Of a DNA stretch of 64,000 bases, positions 54,267 through 59,430 are shown piece by piece (position 1 is the stretch's first letter; the number at the start of each line of letters is the position of its first letter). The position numbers and the translations under genes were made by a program. Below the pieces are notes generated by a model that had not been told where the DNA came from, ran no database searches, and saw only the letters and a program-made list of their open reading frames with translations. The DNA is from Geodermatophilus sabuli (GTDB taxonomy: Bacteria > Actinomycetota > Actinomycetes > Mycobacteriales > Geodermatophilaceae). The stretch spans positions 1 through 64,000 of the forward strand of contig NZ_JAAGWF010000018.1 of NCBI RefSeq assembly GCF_010686765.1, in the 5' to 3' direction.

Positions 54267-54341
54267 TGCGTCGGGTCGCGGTACGTGGACACCGTCCGCG
54301 CCGCCGTCCCGAGGGGGCCCGGGCCGGTGCACCCTGGGTGC

Positions 54342-55202
54342 GTGCCCGAGGTGCCGCCCGAGATCGCCGAGCTAGCCGCCCGCCTCGCGACCGTGCCCGG
54401 CGTCGTCGGCGTGACCCTCGGCGGCAGCCGCGCGCGCGGCGACCACACGGCCGACTCCGACACCGACCTCGGCCTGTACTACCGCCCGCCGCTGGACACC
54501 GGCGCCCTGGGCACGCTGGCCCGGGAGGTGTCCGGCCCCGGAGCCACGGTGACCCGGCCCGGTGAGTGGGGCCCCTGGGTGGACGGCGGCGCCTGGCTGC
54601 GGATCGGCGGCCGGGCGGTGGACTGGATCTACCGGGACGTCGACCGGGTCGCCGCGGCCGGGCGGGACGCTCGCGCGGGGCGGGTCGCCTTCCACGCCCA
54701 GGTCGGCCACCCGCTGGGCTTCCTCGACGCCGCCTACGCCGGGGAGCTGGCCCTGGGCGTGGTCCTGGCCGACCCCTCGGGAGAGCTCGCCGCGCTCCGG
54801 CGCCAGGTGGCCGACCACCCGCCGGCGCTCGGCGCGGCGCTGGTGGCCCGCCTCGAGGAGGCCCGGTTCTGCGTCACGATCGCCGGGAAGGGCGCCGCCC
54901 GCGGCGACACCGCCTACGTCGCCGGCTGCCTGTTCCGCGCGGTCGGCCTGTCCGCCGCCGCGCTGCACGGCCGGGCCGGGCGGTGGCTGGTCACCGAGAA
55001 GGGCGCGGTCGCCGCGGCCGGCCGGCTGCCGGGGGCCCCGCCGGGCTTCGCCGGCCGCGCGCAGGCCGTCCTCGCCGCCCTGGGCACGGACGCCGCGACG
55101 CTGCGGGGTGCCGTCGCGGCCGCGGGTGACCTCGTGGCCGAGGTGTCGAGCGCCTGCGCGGCCGGTCGCGACCTCAGTCCCGGCCCTCGATCGCCGCGGT
55201 GA
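54342..55202 (+). CDS. nucleotidyltransferase-fold protein
   Basis: A 286-residue protein with an N-terminal minimal nucleotidyltransferase domain: VTLGGSRARGDHTADSDTDL matches the GS...D-x-D catalytic pattern (metal Asp pair intact), and DWIYRDVDR supplies the third acid. The remaining 170 residues are helical. It may transfer an NMP to a protein or small molecule, like aminoglycoside-type enzymes or MNT proteins; the target is unknown. GTG 54342 is chosen because the domain begins right after; GTG 54285 is possible. Its 3' end overlaps the 3' end of the NhaA fusion gene by 29 bases. Confidence 0.72.
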   Translation: MPEVPPEIAELAARLATVPGVVGVTLGGSRARGDHTADSDTDLGLYYRPPLDTGALGTLAREVSGPGATVTRPGEWGPWVDGGAWLRIGGRAVDWIYRDVDRVAAAGRDARAGRVAFHAQVGHPLGFLDAAYAGELALGVVLADPSGELAALRRQVADHPPALGAALVARLEEARFCVTIAGKGAARGDTAYVAGCLFRAVGLSAAALHGRAGRWLVTEKGAVAAAGRLPGAPPGFAGRAQAVLAALGTDAATLRGAVAAAGDLVAEVSSACAAGRDLSPGPRSPR

Positions 55203-57822
55203 CCTCGGCGTCGGTGGGGTTGCGCAGCAGCTCGCCGCGCCGCCACACCACGACCGGGAGGTCCGCCTCCGCCACGCCCAGCTCGGCCAGGAGCGCGGCG
55301 TCGTCCACGCTGCCGTCGAGGTCGACGAAGGCGGCCGTGAGCCGGCGTGCGCTGGCGTACTGCTGCAACCGCCGGCTGTCCGGCGATCCCGCCCGGCCCA
55401 CGATGCGGAGGTCGGCGGCCAGCTCCAGGAGCATCGACCGGCGGACGAGGAAGGCCCGGAGCACCAGTTCCTTCAGCGCCCGGTCGGAGCGGAAGACGTC
55501 GTGCATCCGGTCGTCGGGGACGCGGATGACCTCACCGGGCCGGATGACCAGCGCGGTGAGCGACACCGGGTCGTCGCTGAACAGGTCGAGCTCACCCAGG
55601 AACCGCCGCTGCCCGTGCACGGAGATCACCCGTTGGTCGGCGCGGCCGTGGTCCTCGACGATCGCCACCGCGCCCGAGAGGACCACGTGGAAGTCGTAGC
55701 CGGGGTCGCCCTCGCGGAAGAGGGTGTCGCCGGGTTCGCACCGCCGCCGCGACCCGTGCCGTTCCAGCAGGGCCAGCTGCTCGTCGGTCAGCCGCGGGAA
55801 GGCGCCGTCCCGGTCGGGCGTCTCGGGCAGGTCGGCCGGCACGGTGGCCGCCGCGTCGACGGCGGCGCGCTGGTCGGCACCGCGCCGGGGTCCGAGCATC
55901 GGCAGGGCCCGCCCGGCCGCGCCGTCGTCCGCCGGGGACGGCCGCCGGGGCCAGTCGCCGTCCCCGTCGGCGGTGGCGAGCAGCTCGGCGGCCAACGTGT
56001 CGGCGTCGTAGGGGCCGGTGTGCCGGCGCCCGCCGATGAAGAACGTCGGGGTGCCCTCGACCCCACTGGCCTCGGCGGAGTCGACGTCCTCCTGCACGCG
56101 CCGGGCGTACCGGCTGGAGCCGAGGTCACGGGCGAACCGCTGCACGTCCAGCCCGACCGCCGCGGCGTGCTCGAGCAGGTCCTGCGGCAGCAGCCGGTCC
56201 TGCGCGCTGAACAGCCGGTCGTGCATCTCCCAGAACCGACCCTGCGCGGCCGCCGCCTCGGCGGCCTCGGCGGCGAGCTCGGCGTGCGGGTGCACGTCGA
56301 CCAGCGGCACGTGCCGGAAGACGTAGCGGAGCCGGTCACCGAACCGCTCGCGCAGCTCCTCGACGGCGCCGGTGGCCCGGCCGCAGAAGGGGCACTCGAA
56401 GTCGCCGTACTCGACGAGCGTCAGCGGTGCGTCGACCGGCCCGCGGACGTGGTCGCGCGACGGGTCCACCGGCGGGTCGAGCAGCACCGACCGGCCCGCC
56501 GCGTCCGCCGGCCGCCGGCGGTCGGCCAGCCGGAACAGCGCCCAGCCCAGCAGCGCGGCCAGCACCGACGCCGCGAGGACACCGACCCGCGCCTGGTCGG
56601 CCAGCCGCTCGTCGCCGTCGAAGGCGAGGTCGACGATGAACAGCGAGATCGTGAACCCGATGCCCGACAACGCGGCGCCGCCGGCCAGCTGCAGACCGCC
56701 CAGGCCCGGCGCCAGCTCACCGAGGCGCAGCCGCACCGCCAGGCCGGTGCCGATCAGGATGCCCGCGAGCTTGCCGAGGACGAGTCCGGCGACCACACCG
56801 ATCGTGACCGGGGAGGTCAGCGCCGCCCGCAGGGTCTCACCGGTCAGCGCGACGCCGGCGTTGGCCAGGGCGAAGACCGGCACGATCACGTAGCTGGTCC
56901 ACGGCTGCCAGAGCTGCTGCAGCCGCTCGCTGGCCGACACCGACCGGTCGATGCTCAGCCGGGCCGCCCGCGCGAACGCCGGGTTCGGTGACTGCTGGTA
57001 GGCGCGGGTCCGCCGGGCGGCGTCCTCGACCTCCTCCCGGCGCGCCGGGTAGGCGGGGGTGAACAGCGCGATCACCACACCGGCCAGGGTCGGGTGCACG
57101 CCGGAGGCGTACATCGCCACCCAGACCGCCAGCGCGAGCACCAGGTAGGCCGGCCCGCGCCAGACCCGCAGGTACCGCAGGCCGATCATCAGACCCAACC
57201 CCAGGACGGCCAGCGCCAGGGGGCCGAGGGCGAGGTCCTCGGTGTAGAAGAGCGCGATGACGGTGAGCGCCCCGACGTCGTCGGCGATGGCCAGCGTCAG
57301 CAGGAACACCCGCAGCTGGGCCGGGCAGGCCGGCCCGACCAGGGCCAGCACGCCGAGCAGGAACGCGGTGTCGGTGGAGATGACCACGCCCCAGGCCGAC
57401 ACCGCCTCGCTGTCGAGGGTGAACGCGACGTAGACCAGCGCCGGCACCGCCAGCCCGGTGACCGCGGCCAGCGCCGGCACCGCGGCCCGCCGCCGGTCGG
57501 TGAGCTCCCCCATCACCAGCTCGCGCTTGACGTCCAGCCCGACGACGAAGAAGAAGAAGACCATCAGGCCGTCGTTGACCCAGTGCTGCAGGTCCAGCGC
57601 CAGCTCCGTGCCGCCCACCCGGACGGCGAACTCGGTGTGCCAGAAGGCGTCGTAGCCGGCACCGAACGGGGAGTTCACCCACAGCAGCGCGACCACGGTG
57701 GCGACCAGCAGCAGACCCGCGCTGCCGGCCTCGGTGCGCAGCCGCCGGCGCAGCGGGGCCACCCGGGCCAGGAGCCCGCCGCGACCTCCCGGGGCGGACT
57801 GGCGGTCGGCGGTGACGGTCAC
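55174..57822 (-). CDS. NhaA Na+/H+ antiporter fused to DsbA, cyclic-nucleotide-binding and glutaredoxin-like domains
   Basis: An 882-residue chimera. Residues about 1-430 are an NhaA-type antiporter: GAGYDAFWHTEFAVRVGG, NDGLMVFFFFVVGLDVKREL, STDTAFLLGVLALVG and the ion-binding AIADDVGALTVIA with the Asp pair, then ALSGIGFTISLFIVDLAF. Residues about 445-620 are a DsbA-like thioredoxin domain with VEYGDFECPFCGRA (CPFC near 475) and GTPTFFIGGRRHTGPY. Residues about 660-790 form a cyclic-nucleotide-binding domain (GDTLFREGDPGYDFHVVLSG, FLGELDLFSDDPVS). Residues about 800-882 look like the N-terminal glutaredoxin-like part of CNB-type thioredoxin reductases, with LRIVGRAGSPDSRRLQQY (no CxxC) and LPVVVWRRGELLRNPTDAEV; the FAD part is absent. 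GTG 57822 overlaps the MFS stop. Confidence 0.85.
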   Translation of the reverse strand: MTVTADRQSAPGGRGGLLARVAPLRRRLRTEAGSAGLLLVATVVALLWVNSPFGAGYDAFWHTEFAVRVGGTELALDLQHWVNDGLMVFFFFVVGLDVKRELVMGELTDRRRAAVPALAAVTGLAVPALVYVAFTLDSEAVSAWGVVISTDTAFLLGVLALVGPACPAQLRVFLLTLAIADDVGALTVIALFYTEDLALGPLALAVLGLGLMIGLRYLRVWRGPAYLVLALAVWVAMYASGVHPTLAGVVIALFTPAYPARREEVEDAARRTRAYQQSPNPAFARAARLSIDRSVSASERLQQLWQPWTSYVIVPVFALANAGVALTGETLRAALTSPVTIGVVAGLVLGKLAGILIGTGLAVRLRLGELAPGLGGLQLAGGAALSGIGFTISLFIVDLAFDGDERLADQARVGVLAASVLAALLGWALFRLADRRRPADAAGRSVLLDPPVDPSRDHVRGPVDAPLTLVEYGDFECPFCGRATGAVEELRERFGDRLRYVFRHVPLVDVHPHAELAAEAAEAAAAQGRFWEMHDRLFSAQDRLLPQDLLEHAAAVGLDVQRFARDLGSSRYARRVQEDVDSAEASGVEGTPTFFIGGRRHTGPYDADTLAAELLATADGDGDWPRRPSPADDGAAGRALPMLGPRRGADQRAAVDAAATVPADLPETPDRDGAFPRLTDEQLALLERHGSRRRCEPGDTLFREGDPGYDFHVVLSGAVAIVEDHGRADQRVISVHGQRRFLGELDLFSDDPVSLTALVIRPGEVIRVPDDRMHDVFRSDRALKELVLRAFLVRRSMLLELAADLRIVGRAGSPDSRRLQQYASARRLTAAFVDLDGSVDDAALLAELGVAEADLPVVVWRRGELLRNPTDAEVTAAIEGRD

Positions 57823-59327
57823 CGGCCGGTCTCCCCGCCACCGGCCGGGTGCAGCTGCGGGCCGGTCACGCCGCAGTGCGGGCACTCCTCGAGGTGCAGG
57901 CGGCGGGGCAGTTCCTCGGCCGCCAGCGGGCGCCGCACGTACGCGAGGGCGATGAGGGCCCCGGCCACCAGCAGCCCGGCGCAGATGAGCACCGCCGTCC
58001 GGAAGCCGGCGCCGAACGCGCCCGGGTCGGTGTAGTCGCTGCCCCCGAGCCCGGCGGCCGCGGGCACCACCGCGACGGCGAGCAGCCCGGCGGCCCGCGC
58101 CACGGCGTTGTTGACGCCCGAGGCGACACCGGCGAACCGGTCGGCGGCGGAGTCCAGCACGGTGGCGGTGAGCGGGGCCACCAGCAGGGTGAGGCCGGCG
58201 CCGAACAGCACGGCGGCCGGCAGGACGTCGACGACGTAGGAGGCGTCCGGGCCGATCCGCAGCATCAGCAGCACCCCGGCGGCCGACACCAGCGGGCCGG
58301 CCGTCATCAGCAGCCGCGGGCCGATCCGCTGGGCCAGCGCCCCCACGCGGGCGGAGAACAGCAGCATGAGCACGGTGACCGGCAGCAGCGCCGTCCCGGC
58401 CAGCAGCGGGGCGAACCCCGACACGACCTGCAGGTGCAGGACGAGCAGCACGAACACCACCCCGAGCGCCGCGTAGACCACGAAGGTGACGGCGTTGGCC
58501 GCGGTGAACTGGGCGTCCCGGAAGAGCGCGGGCGGCACCAGCGGGGAGACCGAGCGCCGCTGCACGACCACGAAGGCACCCAGCGCGACCAGCCCGGCCG
58601 CGGCCCACACCCAGATCCCGGGCCCGCGACCGGGCTCGCCGGCCGCGGTCAGCGCGTACGTCAGGGCCCCCAGGCCGACCGCGACCAGCACCGTCCCCGG
58701 CCAGTCCAGCCGCCCGCCCGCCTCCGGGTCCCGCGACTCCGGGACGTGCCGCGCCGCGACGACGACGATCAGCACGGCCAGCGGCAGGTTGAGCAGGAAC
58801 ACCAGCCGCCAGTTCCACTCCACCAGCCATCCGCCGACGAACGGGCCCAGCGCGCCCGCGACCCCGCCCAGGCCGGACCAGGCACCGACGGCGGCCGCGC
58901 GGTCCGAGCCGTGGAAGGACGCCGAGATGATGGCCAGGCTGCCCGGCGTCAGCAGCGCCCCACCCACACCCTGCAGGGCACGCGCCGCGATCAGCGTCCG
59001 GATGTCGGGCGCCAGCCCGCACAGCAGGGAGGCCGCGGCGAACCAGACGACGCCGACGACGAACACCCGCCGCCGGCCGAGCCGGTCCCCGAGCGAGCCG
59101 CCCAGCAGGATCAGCGACGCGAGGGTGAGCGTGTAGGCGTTCACCGTCCACTGCAGGTCCGAGAAGCCGGCGTCCAGGTCGGTGCCGATGCGTTCGAGTG
59201 CGACGTTGACGACGGTGGCGTCCAGCATCGCCAGGCTCGACCCGAGCACGGTGGTGAGCAGCACCCAGCGCGCCCGCGACGTGCCCATGCGCAGCGCACC
59301 GTCCGGGGGCACCGCCACCCCGGCCAT
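57819..59327 (-). CDS. MFS exporter of the DHA2 (14-helix) type with Cys tail
   Basis: A 502-residue drug-efflux-like transporter. Motif LDATVVNVALERIG, GSLGDRLGRRRVFV (motif A), SFHGSDRAAAVGAWSGLGGV and GALGPFVGGWLVEWNWR are typical of EmrB/QacA-like DHA2 proteins, with 14 predicted helices. It ends in a short soluble tail, EECPHCGVTGPQLHPAGGG, with a CxxC pair that could bind metal. GTG/ATG: ATG 59327 with GGGGGAGG four bases upstream. Its stop overlaps the NhaA fusion start, so the two form a coupled operon. Confidence 0.9.
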   Translation of the reverse strand: MAGVAVPPDGALRMGTSRARWVLLTTVLGSSLAMLDATVVNVALERIGTDLDAGFSDLQWTVNAYTLTLASLILLGGSLGDRLGRRRVFVVGVVWFAAASLLCGLAPDIRTLIAARALQGVGGALLTPGSLAIISASFHGSDRAAAVGAWSGLGGVAGALGPFVGGWLVEWNWRLVFLLNLPLAVLIVVVAARHVPESRDPEAGGRLDWPGTVLVAVGLGALTYALTAAGEPGRGPGIWVWAAAGLVALGAFVVVQRRSVSPLVPPALFRDAQFTAANAVTFVVYAALGVVFVLLVLHLQVVSGFAPLLAGTALLPVTVLMLLFSARVGALAQRIGPRLLMTAGPLVSAAGVLLMLRIGPDASYVVDVLPAAVLFGAGLTLLVAPLTATVLDSAADRFAGVASGVNNAVARAAGLLAVAVVPAAAGLGGSDYTDPGAFGAGFRTAVLICAGLLVAGALIALAYVRRPLAAEELPRRLHLEECPHCGVTGPQLHPAGGGETGR

Positions 59328-59430
59328 CGCGCCTCCCCCCGCCGGGTGCACCCGCAGCCCGGCCGGACGTCGTCCGTCCGCCCGGGAGTCTGCCTGCTGC
59401 CGGCCCGCCGGTGGAAGGCGCGGAGCCGGG

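Follow-up and report, generated by a model that had tools for sequence, protein, structure and literature searches.

The model Na+/H+ antiporter, NhaA, is known to be controlled by pH through residues of its own. Sperm and plants are known to have exchangers with a built-in cyclic-nucleotide-binding (CNB) domain, and the plant Na+/H+ exchanger SOS1 carries such a domain in its cytosolic C-terminus. Among thioredoxin reductases the classical motif is CxxC. Two reports describe, respectively, SLC9C1, a sperm Na+/H+ exchanger with a cytosolic C-terminal CNB domain, a voltage sensor and modulation by cAMP (PMC6052114), and a CNB-bearing reductase, ATII-TrxR (PMC6544261).

The locus presented here lies in a window of 64,000 nucleotides from Geodermatophilus sabuli, the whole stretch of DNA that was analysed. 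A fusion gene of 882 codons plus stop occupies positions 55174..57822 of the minus strand, with a GTG start at 57822-57820, a stop at 55176-55174 and no internal stops in the reading frame. The protein comprises, in order, an NhaA part (residues 27-429), a DsbA/thioredoxin part (457-614), a CNB-fold part (676-800) and a glutaredoxin (Grx) fold (803-880). All four parts are folded in the AlphaFold2 model (mean pLDDT 88.4), and the CNB-Grx tail calculated by itself reached a pLDDT of 91.4. A variable linker (residues 620-664; 55831..55965, minus strand) has a pLDDT below 50 at residues 621-656.

The same four-part order was found in 54 of 112 family genomes, including 22 of the 26 in the genus, where a match had to run from residue 22 or earlier to residue 854 or later; the stops fall near the same place, and one of the 54 genomes (G096) has an in-frame stop. 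In the genome collection, 80 of 485 relatives were kept, and 23 four-part loci occurred among these. Nothing was found to suggest that two genes had been joined by assembly or annotation, and this explanation, along with a frameshift, is refuted by the same join in the assemblies of the 54 family genomes and by full-length matches in relatives. The earlier note was thus correct to read four domains in one frame as a natural fusion, and its motifs (CPFC, AIADDVGALTV and a CxxC-less tail) are as it described them. The checks that it proposed on homologues and on folding came out in its favour, since domain order and stop region are common to relatives and structure prediction gave confident CNB and Grx folds. 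It had also reasoned that homologues ending after the DsbA part, with a separate CNB-reductase gene downstream, would imply an assembly join. Two-part NhaA-DsbA homologues that end after the DsbA part do occur in other genera; however, NhaA adjoined a CNB-Grx-reductase gene, the arrangement sought as a source of the fusion, at none of the 20 reductase loci examined (L172-L191), and the shorter flanks of 29 phylum-scan loci (L143-L171) contained no NhaA-DsbA gene.

The NhaA domain (56536..57744, minus strand) matched Pfam NhaA (PF06965) over residues 27-429 with 448 bits against a cut-off of 23.5, and the NCBIfam equivalog TIGR00773 with 325.1 against 254 bits, while scoring under the cut-offs of four narrower NCBIfam NhaA models. 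Residues D151, D181, D182 and K351 align with the ion-site residues of NhaA in the PDB, D133, D163, D164 and the TM10 lysine K300 in E. coli numbering, and are present in 53/53 NhaA-bearing rows of the alignment (A2). A fold search with the whole model returned E. coli NhaA with a TM-score of 0.94 on the target, followed by SLC9C1 and SOS1, which matched piecewise only (TM-scores of about 0.3, RMSD of about 27 Å). Judged by curated models and ion-site residues, the core is genuinely of the NhaA type and a predicted Na+/H+ antiporter; by both sequence and fold it matches NhaA and not an SLC9-type exchanger.

The second domain (residues 457-614; 55981..56454, minus strand) has the DsbA/thioredoxin fold, a CxxC site (CPFC, residues 477-480) and a cis-Pro motif (GTPTFF, with GTP at 590-592). 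It matched Pfam Thioredoxin_4 over residues 457-611 (83 bits versus 23.2) and DSBA over 468-614 (67.7 bits versus 25.6). CPFC is kept in 27 of 28 four-part proteins. The exception, L057, which comes from a metagenome-assembled contig of doubtful assignment, has APFQ in its place and retains the CNB domain; in the same genus, the two-part proteins L207 and L209 have FTSA and FTNA at this site. Judging from these three proteins, the thiol site is dispensable in some lineages. With helix limits drawn by hand from the AlphaFold2 model, 24 Lys/Arg residues were counted in seven inside loops and two in six outside loops; by the positive-inside rule and homology, the added C-terminal domains are predicted to be cytosolic. 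The DsbA label of the earlier note therefore stands for fold and CPFC but not for location, since the prediction places the thiol domain in the cytosol, unlike DsbA proper, which functions after export to the cell envelope.

The CNB-fold domain (residues 676-800; 55423..55797, minus strand) matched Pfam cNMP_binding (PF00027) over residues 693-779 with 56 bits against 27.5. It adopts the CNB beta-roll, and a fold search with the tail gave CRP-type matches. An Arg in the phosphate-binding cassette binds the phosphate of cyclic nucleotides. In the window fusion, the cassette is GELDLFSDDPVSLTA, and alignment with the cAMP-binding M. tuberculosis CRP puts Val at the position of this Arg. Val fills the column in 16/16 Geodermatophilus rows listed, five of which have an Arg two residues earlier. 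Blastococcus-type fusions have Ala or Pro in the column and Gly in place of a conserved Glu, with an Arg two columns later and, in most, another one column earlier. No fusion listed has Arg in the column itself, although in some an Arg lies no more than two residues away, and none of 24 reductase CNB domains listed has it either. An antiporter gated by cAMP or cGMP, with the CNB domain binding its ligand conventionally and acting on NhaA as in SLC9C1, could claim the fold, the Pfam match above cut-off and the low-scoring SLC9C1 and SOS1 matches next after NhaA; the substitutions in the window, in both types of relatives and in the reductases make it quite improbable. With Val at the phosphate-binding position, the description of this domain as a cAMP-type sensor is unsupported, and canonical cAMP binding was likewise rejected as unsupported.

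The last domain (residues 803-880; 55183..55416, minus strand) was assigned to the Grx fold from model topology (beta-alpha-beta-alpha-beta-beta-alpha) and profile searches. The window's own Grx-like tail had no Pfam match. A profile of 26 tail sequences matched Rv3198.1, a putative glutaredoxin with a PDB entry, at E = 7.8e-6, and PF00462 was matched at E ≤ 0.1 by six of the 26 members (best 5.9e-7), the window's tail not among them. All 50 Foldseek matches listed for the tail were CNB proteins, and the Grx fold was not seen separately among them. Neither a CxxC nor a CxxS active site is present: residues 800-882 of the window protein contain no Cys, and the fusions listed have none at the site. 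The tail shares 43-46% identity with eight of nine CNB-Grx-reductase genes of the family and 36% with the ninth, and 26-45% over the matches in a phylum sample; in most reductase copies the homology begins at an ETPD..GA(F/Y)PRL stretch. A Pyr_redox match, marking the FAD/NAD(P) reductase half, is present in the reductases L179, L172 and L190 and absent from the window protein, in keeping with the earlier proposal that the tail is kin to the front of these flavoproteins and lacks their reductase half.

Such a tail might be a decaying piece of a CNB-Grx-reductase that only stabilises the C-terminus. The missing catalytic Cys of the Grx part would fit this passenger role, as would the long tail branches in both fusion groups and a divergence faster than that of the core (mean identities of 75% and 67% versus 88%). 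However, the tail is found in 54 of 112 family genomes at similar length with a confidently predicted fold, two NhaA-DsbA lineages carry it, and mean pN/pS values of 0.39 (CNB) and 0.54 (Grx) lie below that of the linker (0.82) in a comparison of the window with the 19 named genus homologues, of which 18 were used and L045, the most divergent, was omitted. A passenger tail is thus rather unlikely; judging from these substitution ratios, the CNB and Grx parts are under constraint.

In a core tree from which long or truncated rows (L054, L028, L102, L209 and L207) had been left out beforehand, the NhaA-DsbA cores of the two fusion groups did not form one clade (AU p 0.0023), which points either to two separate attachments of the tail or to an exchange of parts. 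A first tail tree grouped all 29 fusion tails with support of 87/87. In a second, with the long rows of two reductases (L190, L200) and one fusion (L057) removed, they grouped at only 69/0, and trees that joined either fusion group to seven of the family reductases stayed above the 0.05 rejection level (p 0.056 and 0.067). Unfused NhaA and DsbA-like genes are adjacent in at least eight of 61 relatives, seven convergent and one tandem, with separate frames confirmed in G019 and G028. As a side observation, a CNB-Grx-reductase occurs in one of 56 fusion genomes (the 54 plus G077 and G090, where the fusion is split in the assembly) and in eight of 56 others; the Fisher p of 0.03 ignores kinship, and the difference is not taken as evidence.

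Upstream lies a DHA2-type MFS efflux transporter gene (57819..59351, minus strand) with a C-terminal EECPHCGVTGPQ stretch. Its stop overlaps the fusion start by four bases (GTGA), as first noted, and the coupling proposed in the earlier note is supported by the 19 named Geodermatophilus contigs, in 17 of which an MFS homologue precedes the fusion. At the 3' end, a convergent nucleotidyltransferase-domain gene (54285..55202, plus strand), of interest as context only, overlaps the fusion by 29 bases. The overlap was reported correctly, but the suggestion that the tail was cut there was rejected, since homologues stop at much the same point and a tblastn comparison of 45 loci gave no hit to the convergent gene at E ≤ 1e-8. 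In seven of the 19 named contigs, the fusion stop overlaps, as ATGA or GTGA in 7/7, the start of a response regulator-Grx-reductase gene that is followed by a CNB-histidine kinase gene, so that the genes form an apparent operon; counted by handle, the reductase gene adjoins 8 of 22 genus fusions, the strains probably overlapping. It is not next to the fusion in 12 of the 19 contigs or in the window strain, whose nearest copy of the reductase-kinase pair lies elsewhere (G000:C15, L219).

These neighbours bear on a reading in which NhaA is mainly an anchor for an oxidoreductase that would use CPFC, dock through CNB-Grx, draw electrons from the response regulator-Grx-reductase and act on membrane proteins, perhaps the MFS transporter. 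It would account for the CPFC and GTP motifs, the coupled MFS gene, the CxxC in the MFS tail of the window and 15 of 17 named homologues, and the reductase overlap in one lineage. We consider it unlikely: the ion-site residues persist in every NhaA row, whereas CxxC is missing from three; pN/pS is as low in the NhaA part as in the DsbA part, which together indicate that the transporter is kept; and MFS proteins L034 and L037 lack the tail CxxC beside CPFC fusions.

The reading that we favour, at a shade under an even chance, is an NhaA antiporter with a cytosolic redox-control tail, a thiol switch and docking module for a two-component-controlled flavoenzyme. Its observed elements are the fusion and its conservation, the ion-site residues, CPFC, the constraint on the tail and the reductase-gene overlap in one lineage; what we infer is electron transfer, docking and gating and, by homology and the positive-inside rule, the cytosolic location. 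The CPFC pair would be the redox-active element, and the CNB and CxxC-less Grx folds a non-catalytic sensing and docking module through which the antiporter may meet a flavoenzyme that resembles thioredoxin reductase and is encoded in trans, namely the response regulator-Grx-reductase paired with the CNB-histidine kinase. Oxidation or reduction of CPFC might then raise or lower antiport, and a ligand in the CNB domain, though not cAMP bound in the canonical way, might also shift it up or down. The classical CxxC is absent from the reductases read (L179, L172, L040, L043 and L044), which makes electron flow to CPFC a guess. A stricter version, in which a built-in disulfide switch gates the antiporter by cytosolic thiol redox, the kinase and response regulator-Grx-flavoreductase fix its set point, and the tail was joined to two cores, is doubtful. 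The searches yielded no functional data; the genome context gives new support and suggests that sodium and pH control may be wired to cell redox state. If true, the stricter version would be two-component, redox-wired control of sodium and pH. The natural NhaA, thiol and CNB-Grx unit, with its overlapping flavoreductase gene in some strains, offers a compact genetic system in which to test redox-set ion transport, and a possible role for actinobacterial NhaA-DsbA and response regulator-reductase fusions. New here are the failure of the two groups' cores to form one clade, the unfused NhaA/DsbA-like neighbours and the reductase-gene overlap.

Compared to known systems, the fusion resembles the actinobacterial two-part fusions of NhaA with DsbA/thioredoxin (Rhodococcus, Streptomyces, Nocardioides and others) in placing a CxxC-type thiol domain after NhaA, but these stop there and have no CNB or Grx tail. 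The CNB-Grx-thioredoxin-reductase-like flavoproteins contain the same CNB-Grx module and run on into an FAD/NAD(P) reductase; in the fusion, NhaA-DsbA stands in front instead. The response regulator-Grx-reductase of the kinase pairs also has a CxxC-less Grx fold, there beside a reductase, but is a separate gene with a receiver domain where the fusion tail has CNB. E. coli NhaA shares fold and ion-site residues and has no added domains. SLC9C1 and SOS1 likewise join a Na+/H+ exchanger to a cytosolic C-terminal CNB domain; however, they belong to a different exchanger family and have no thiol domain, SLC9C1 also having its voltage sensor and cAMP modulation, and the resemblance is one of plan, not of descent.

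The four-part fusion gene runs on the minus strand from a GTG at 57822 to a stop at 55174 (882 codons). The NhaA, Thioredoxin_4/DSBA and cNMP_binding matches of its protein all lie over their own curated Pfam cut-offs, and the NhaA part is also supported by an NCBIfam equivalog match and by fold. Aligned to the NhaA chains in the PDB, it keeps the acidic residues of the ion site and the lysine of TM10 that are known from E. coli NhaA. The DsbA-like domain carries CPFC and GTPTFF, and its nearest solved structure by sequence is DsbA/TsdA of Corynebacterium diphtheriae. Pfam gives no separate match for the final 80 residues of the window protein, but they adopt a β-α-β-α-β-β-α fold in the predicted model. 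When this end was combined with 25 homologues into a profile, Rv3198.1, a putative glutaredoxin, was matched at E 7.8e-6, and PF00462 is matched by 6 of the 26 members.

The four-part fusion is a conserved natural protein. It was matched through all four parts in 54 of 112 Geodermatophilaceae genomes, 22 of 26 within Geodermatophilus, with 55 matches overall as one genome (G113) has two. One of the 55 (G096) is interrupted by an in-frame stop, and two more family genomes (G077 and G090) have the fusion split in assembly. From a collection of 485 relatives, 80 loci were kept. Four-part loci number 23 (19 from Geodermatophilus, 3 from Blastococcus, plus L057), and the other 57 show NhaA-DsbA only, one of which (L054) stops at the contig end. 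The C-terminal ends of the fusions printed all fall within about 30 residues of one another. L057 (6013-8622) lies on a contig labelled Chthoniobacterales and has long branches; because of its grouping with a Geodermatophilaceae copy in the trees, that label is probably misplaced. At least 8 of 61 genomes carry an unfused NhaA gene next to a DsbA-like gene (7 convergent, 1 tandem), with separate frames checked in two.

In a tree of the NhaA-DsbA core (51 rows), the Geodermatophilus-type and Blastococcus-type fusions stand apart, with 100/100 for each clade; a topology that unites them is rejected (AU p 0.0023). Quick trees of NhaA alone and DsbA alone likewise keep them apart, whereas the tail tree unites them weakly. 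These trees leave two possible histories: two separate attachments of the tail, or the replacement of one core or tail by another. G113 holds both types (L195 and L196).

With NhaA helix limits set by hand from the model, 24 Lys/Arg are in inside loops versus 2 in outside loops. Both termini are predicted to be cytosolic, as in E. coli NhaA, so that the thiol domain would be cytosolic as well, its DsbA name notwithstanding. Mean pN/pS, as saturation-uncorrected proportions, was 0.26 for NhaA, 0.24 for DsbA, 0.82 for the linker, 0.39 for the cyclic-nucleotide-binding-fold (CNB) domain and 0.54 for the glutaredoxin (Grx) fold, comparing the window gene with the named homologues of the genus (18 of 19; the most divergent, L045, was left out).

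The earlier note had taken the CNB domain for a cAMP-type sensor, a reading that the alignment does not favor. The fusion cassette GELSIFDPGPRTSSA aligns to GELDLFSDDPVSLTA of M. tuberculosis CRP with Val in place of the phosphate-binding Arg. Val occupies this column in all 16 Geodermatophilus rows printed, five of which have an Arg two residues earlier, and none of the 24 reductase rows printed has Arg there. The 11 Blastococcus-type rows have Ala (9) or Pro (2), with an Arg two columns later in all 11 and also one column earlier in 9, and Gly replaces Glu. Judged by these residues, the CNB domain is not of the canonical cAMP type and its ligand site may be shifted or different.

CNB-Grx-reductase flavoproteins contain the entire CNB-Grx module of the fusion tail; thus, the tail looks like such an enzyme without its reductase half, as had been proposed. 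In most reductase copies the module starts with ETPD..GA(F/Y)PRL and ends with LRNPxxxEL, just ahead of the FAD-binding GAGPAG stretch. The reductase half matches thioredoxin reductases, under the NCBIfam equivalog cut-off. Across the phylum, the tail was matched in 34 of 396 genomes including the window's own (E <= 1e-10); among 29 loci fetched from these matches, 25 have the reductase and no flank has an NhaA or DsbA match. One CNB-bearing reductase, ATII-TrxR, is described in PMC6544261.

The search for the missing reductase half gave the main new result, a reductase gene that overlaps the fusion. In 7 of the 19 named Geodermatophilus contigs, a response regulator-Grx-reductase gene starts in overlap with the stop codon of the fusion, and a CNB-histidine kinase gene directly follows it (domains determined in L043). 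The pair lies at 8634-11764 in L043, with equivalents in L040, L041, L044, L046, L048 and L049. Counted by locus, the reductase gene adjoins 8 of 22 genus fusions (L127-L134), probably in the same strains, and was not found within 1.5 kb flanks of the other 14. The nearest such pair of the window strain is located elsewhere (L219). Directly upstream of the fusion, 17 of the 19 contigs have a DHA2-type MFS gene, with the 4-base overlap of the window in 8 of the 17; in L053, an MFS homologue is downstream of a two-part gene. At the C-terminus of the MFS exporter there is a recurring EEC-x-HCG-V-x-GPQ-x-HP stretch (window 57819-57890, minus strand; tails of L033-L051). Of the 17 named Geodermatophilus homologues, 15 have its C-x2-C, as does the window.

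The linkage and the conservation are what the sequences show; the chain that we infer would run from the CNB-histidine kinase through the receiver-Grx-reductase and CPFC to antiport. Since the receiver is fused to the flavoprotein, phosphorylation may control the enzyme directly. At just short of an even chance, the best explanation is an NhaA antiporter whose cytosolic tail would be a redox-control unit that docks the antiporter to the response regulator-Grx-reductase. Three findings count against it: lost thiol sites, reductases without the classical CxxC, and piecewise fold matches to SLC9C1 and SOS1 (TM about 0.3). The thiol site is APFQ in L057. Two two-part NhaA-DsbA proteins of the window's own genus, L207 (G001) and L209 (G011), have FTSA and FTNA; with a very long branch besides, their DsbA part may have turned into a non-redox domain. 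Because of these two losses, the reading of the tail as a decaying CNB-Grx-reductase piece, of no present function other than to stabilize the C-terminus, was raised slightly and is still improbable, and the redox-control reading was moved slightly down from an even chance. The classical CxxC is absent from the reductases whose sequences were read; L179, L172 and L043 have YYAAT/YYGSA...C where classical thioredoxin reductases have it, so the CNB- and receiver-bearing enzymes may not, strictly, be thioredoxin reductases.

Among the literature matches listed, mostly from outside subscription journals, titles and abstract openings held nothing on this fusion (NhaA with thioredoxin/DsbA or CNB; CNB- or receiver-bearing reductases), nor did those of the best 10 of 552 on Geodermatophilus antiporters or NhaA. 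The fusion is real, conserved and unusual, and the physiological meaning proposed for it is plausible. Among exchangers that carry a CNB domain, SLC9C1 (PMC6052114) comes nearest to it. An antiporter with appended cytosolic control domains is of a kind already known, and this variant is new.
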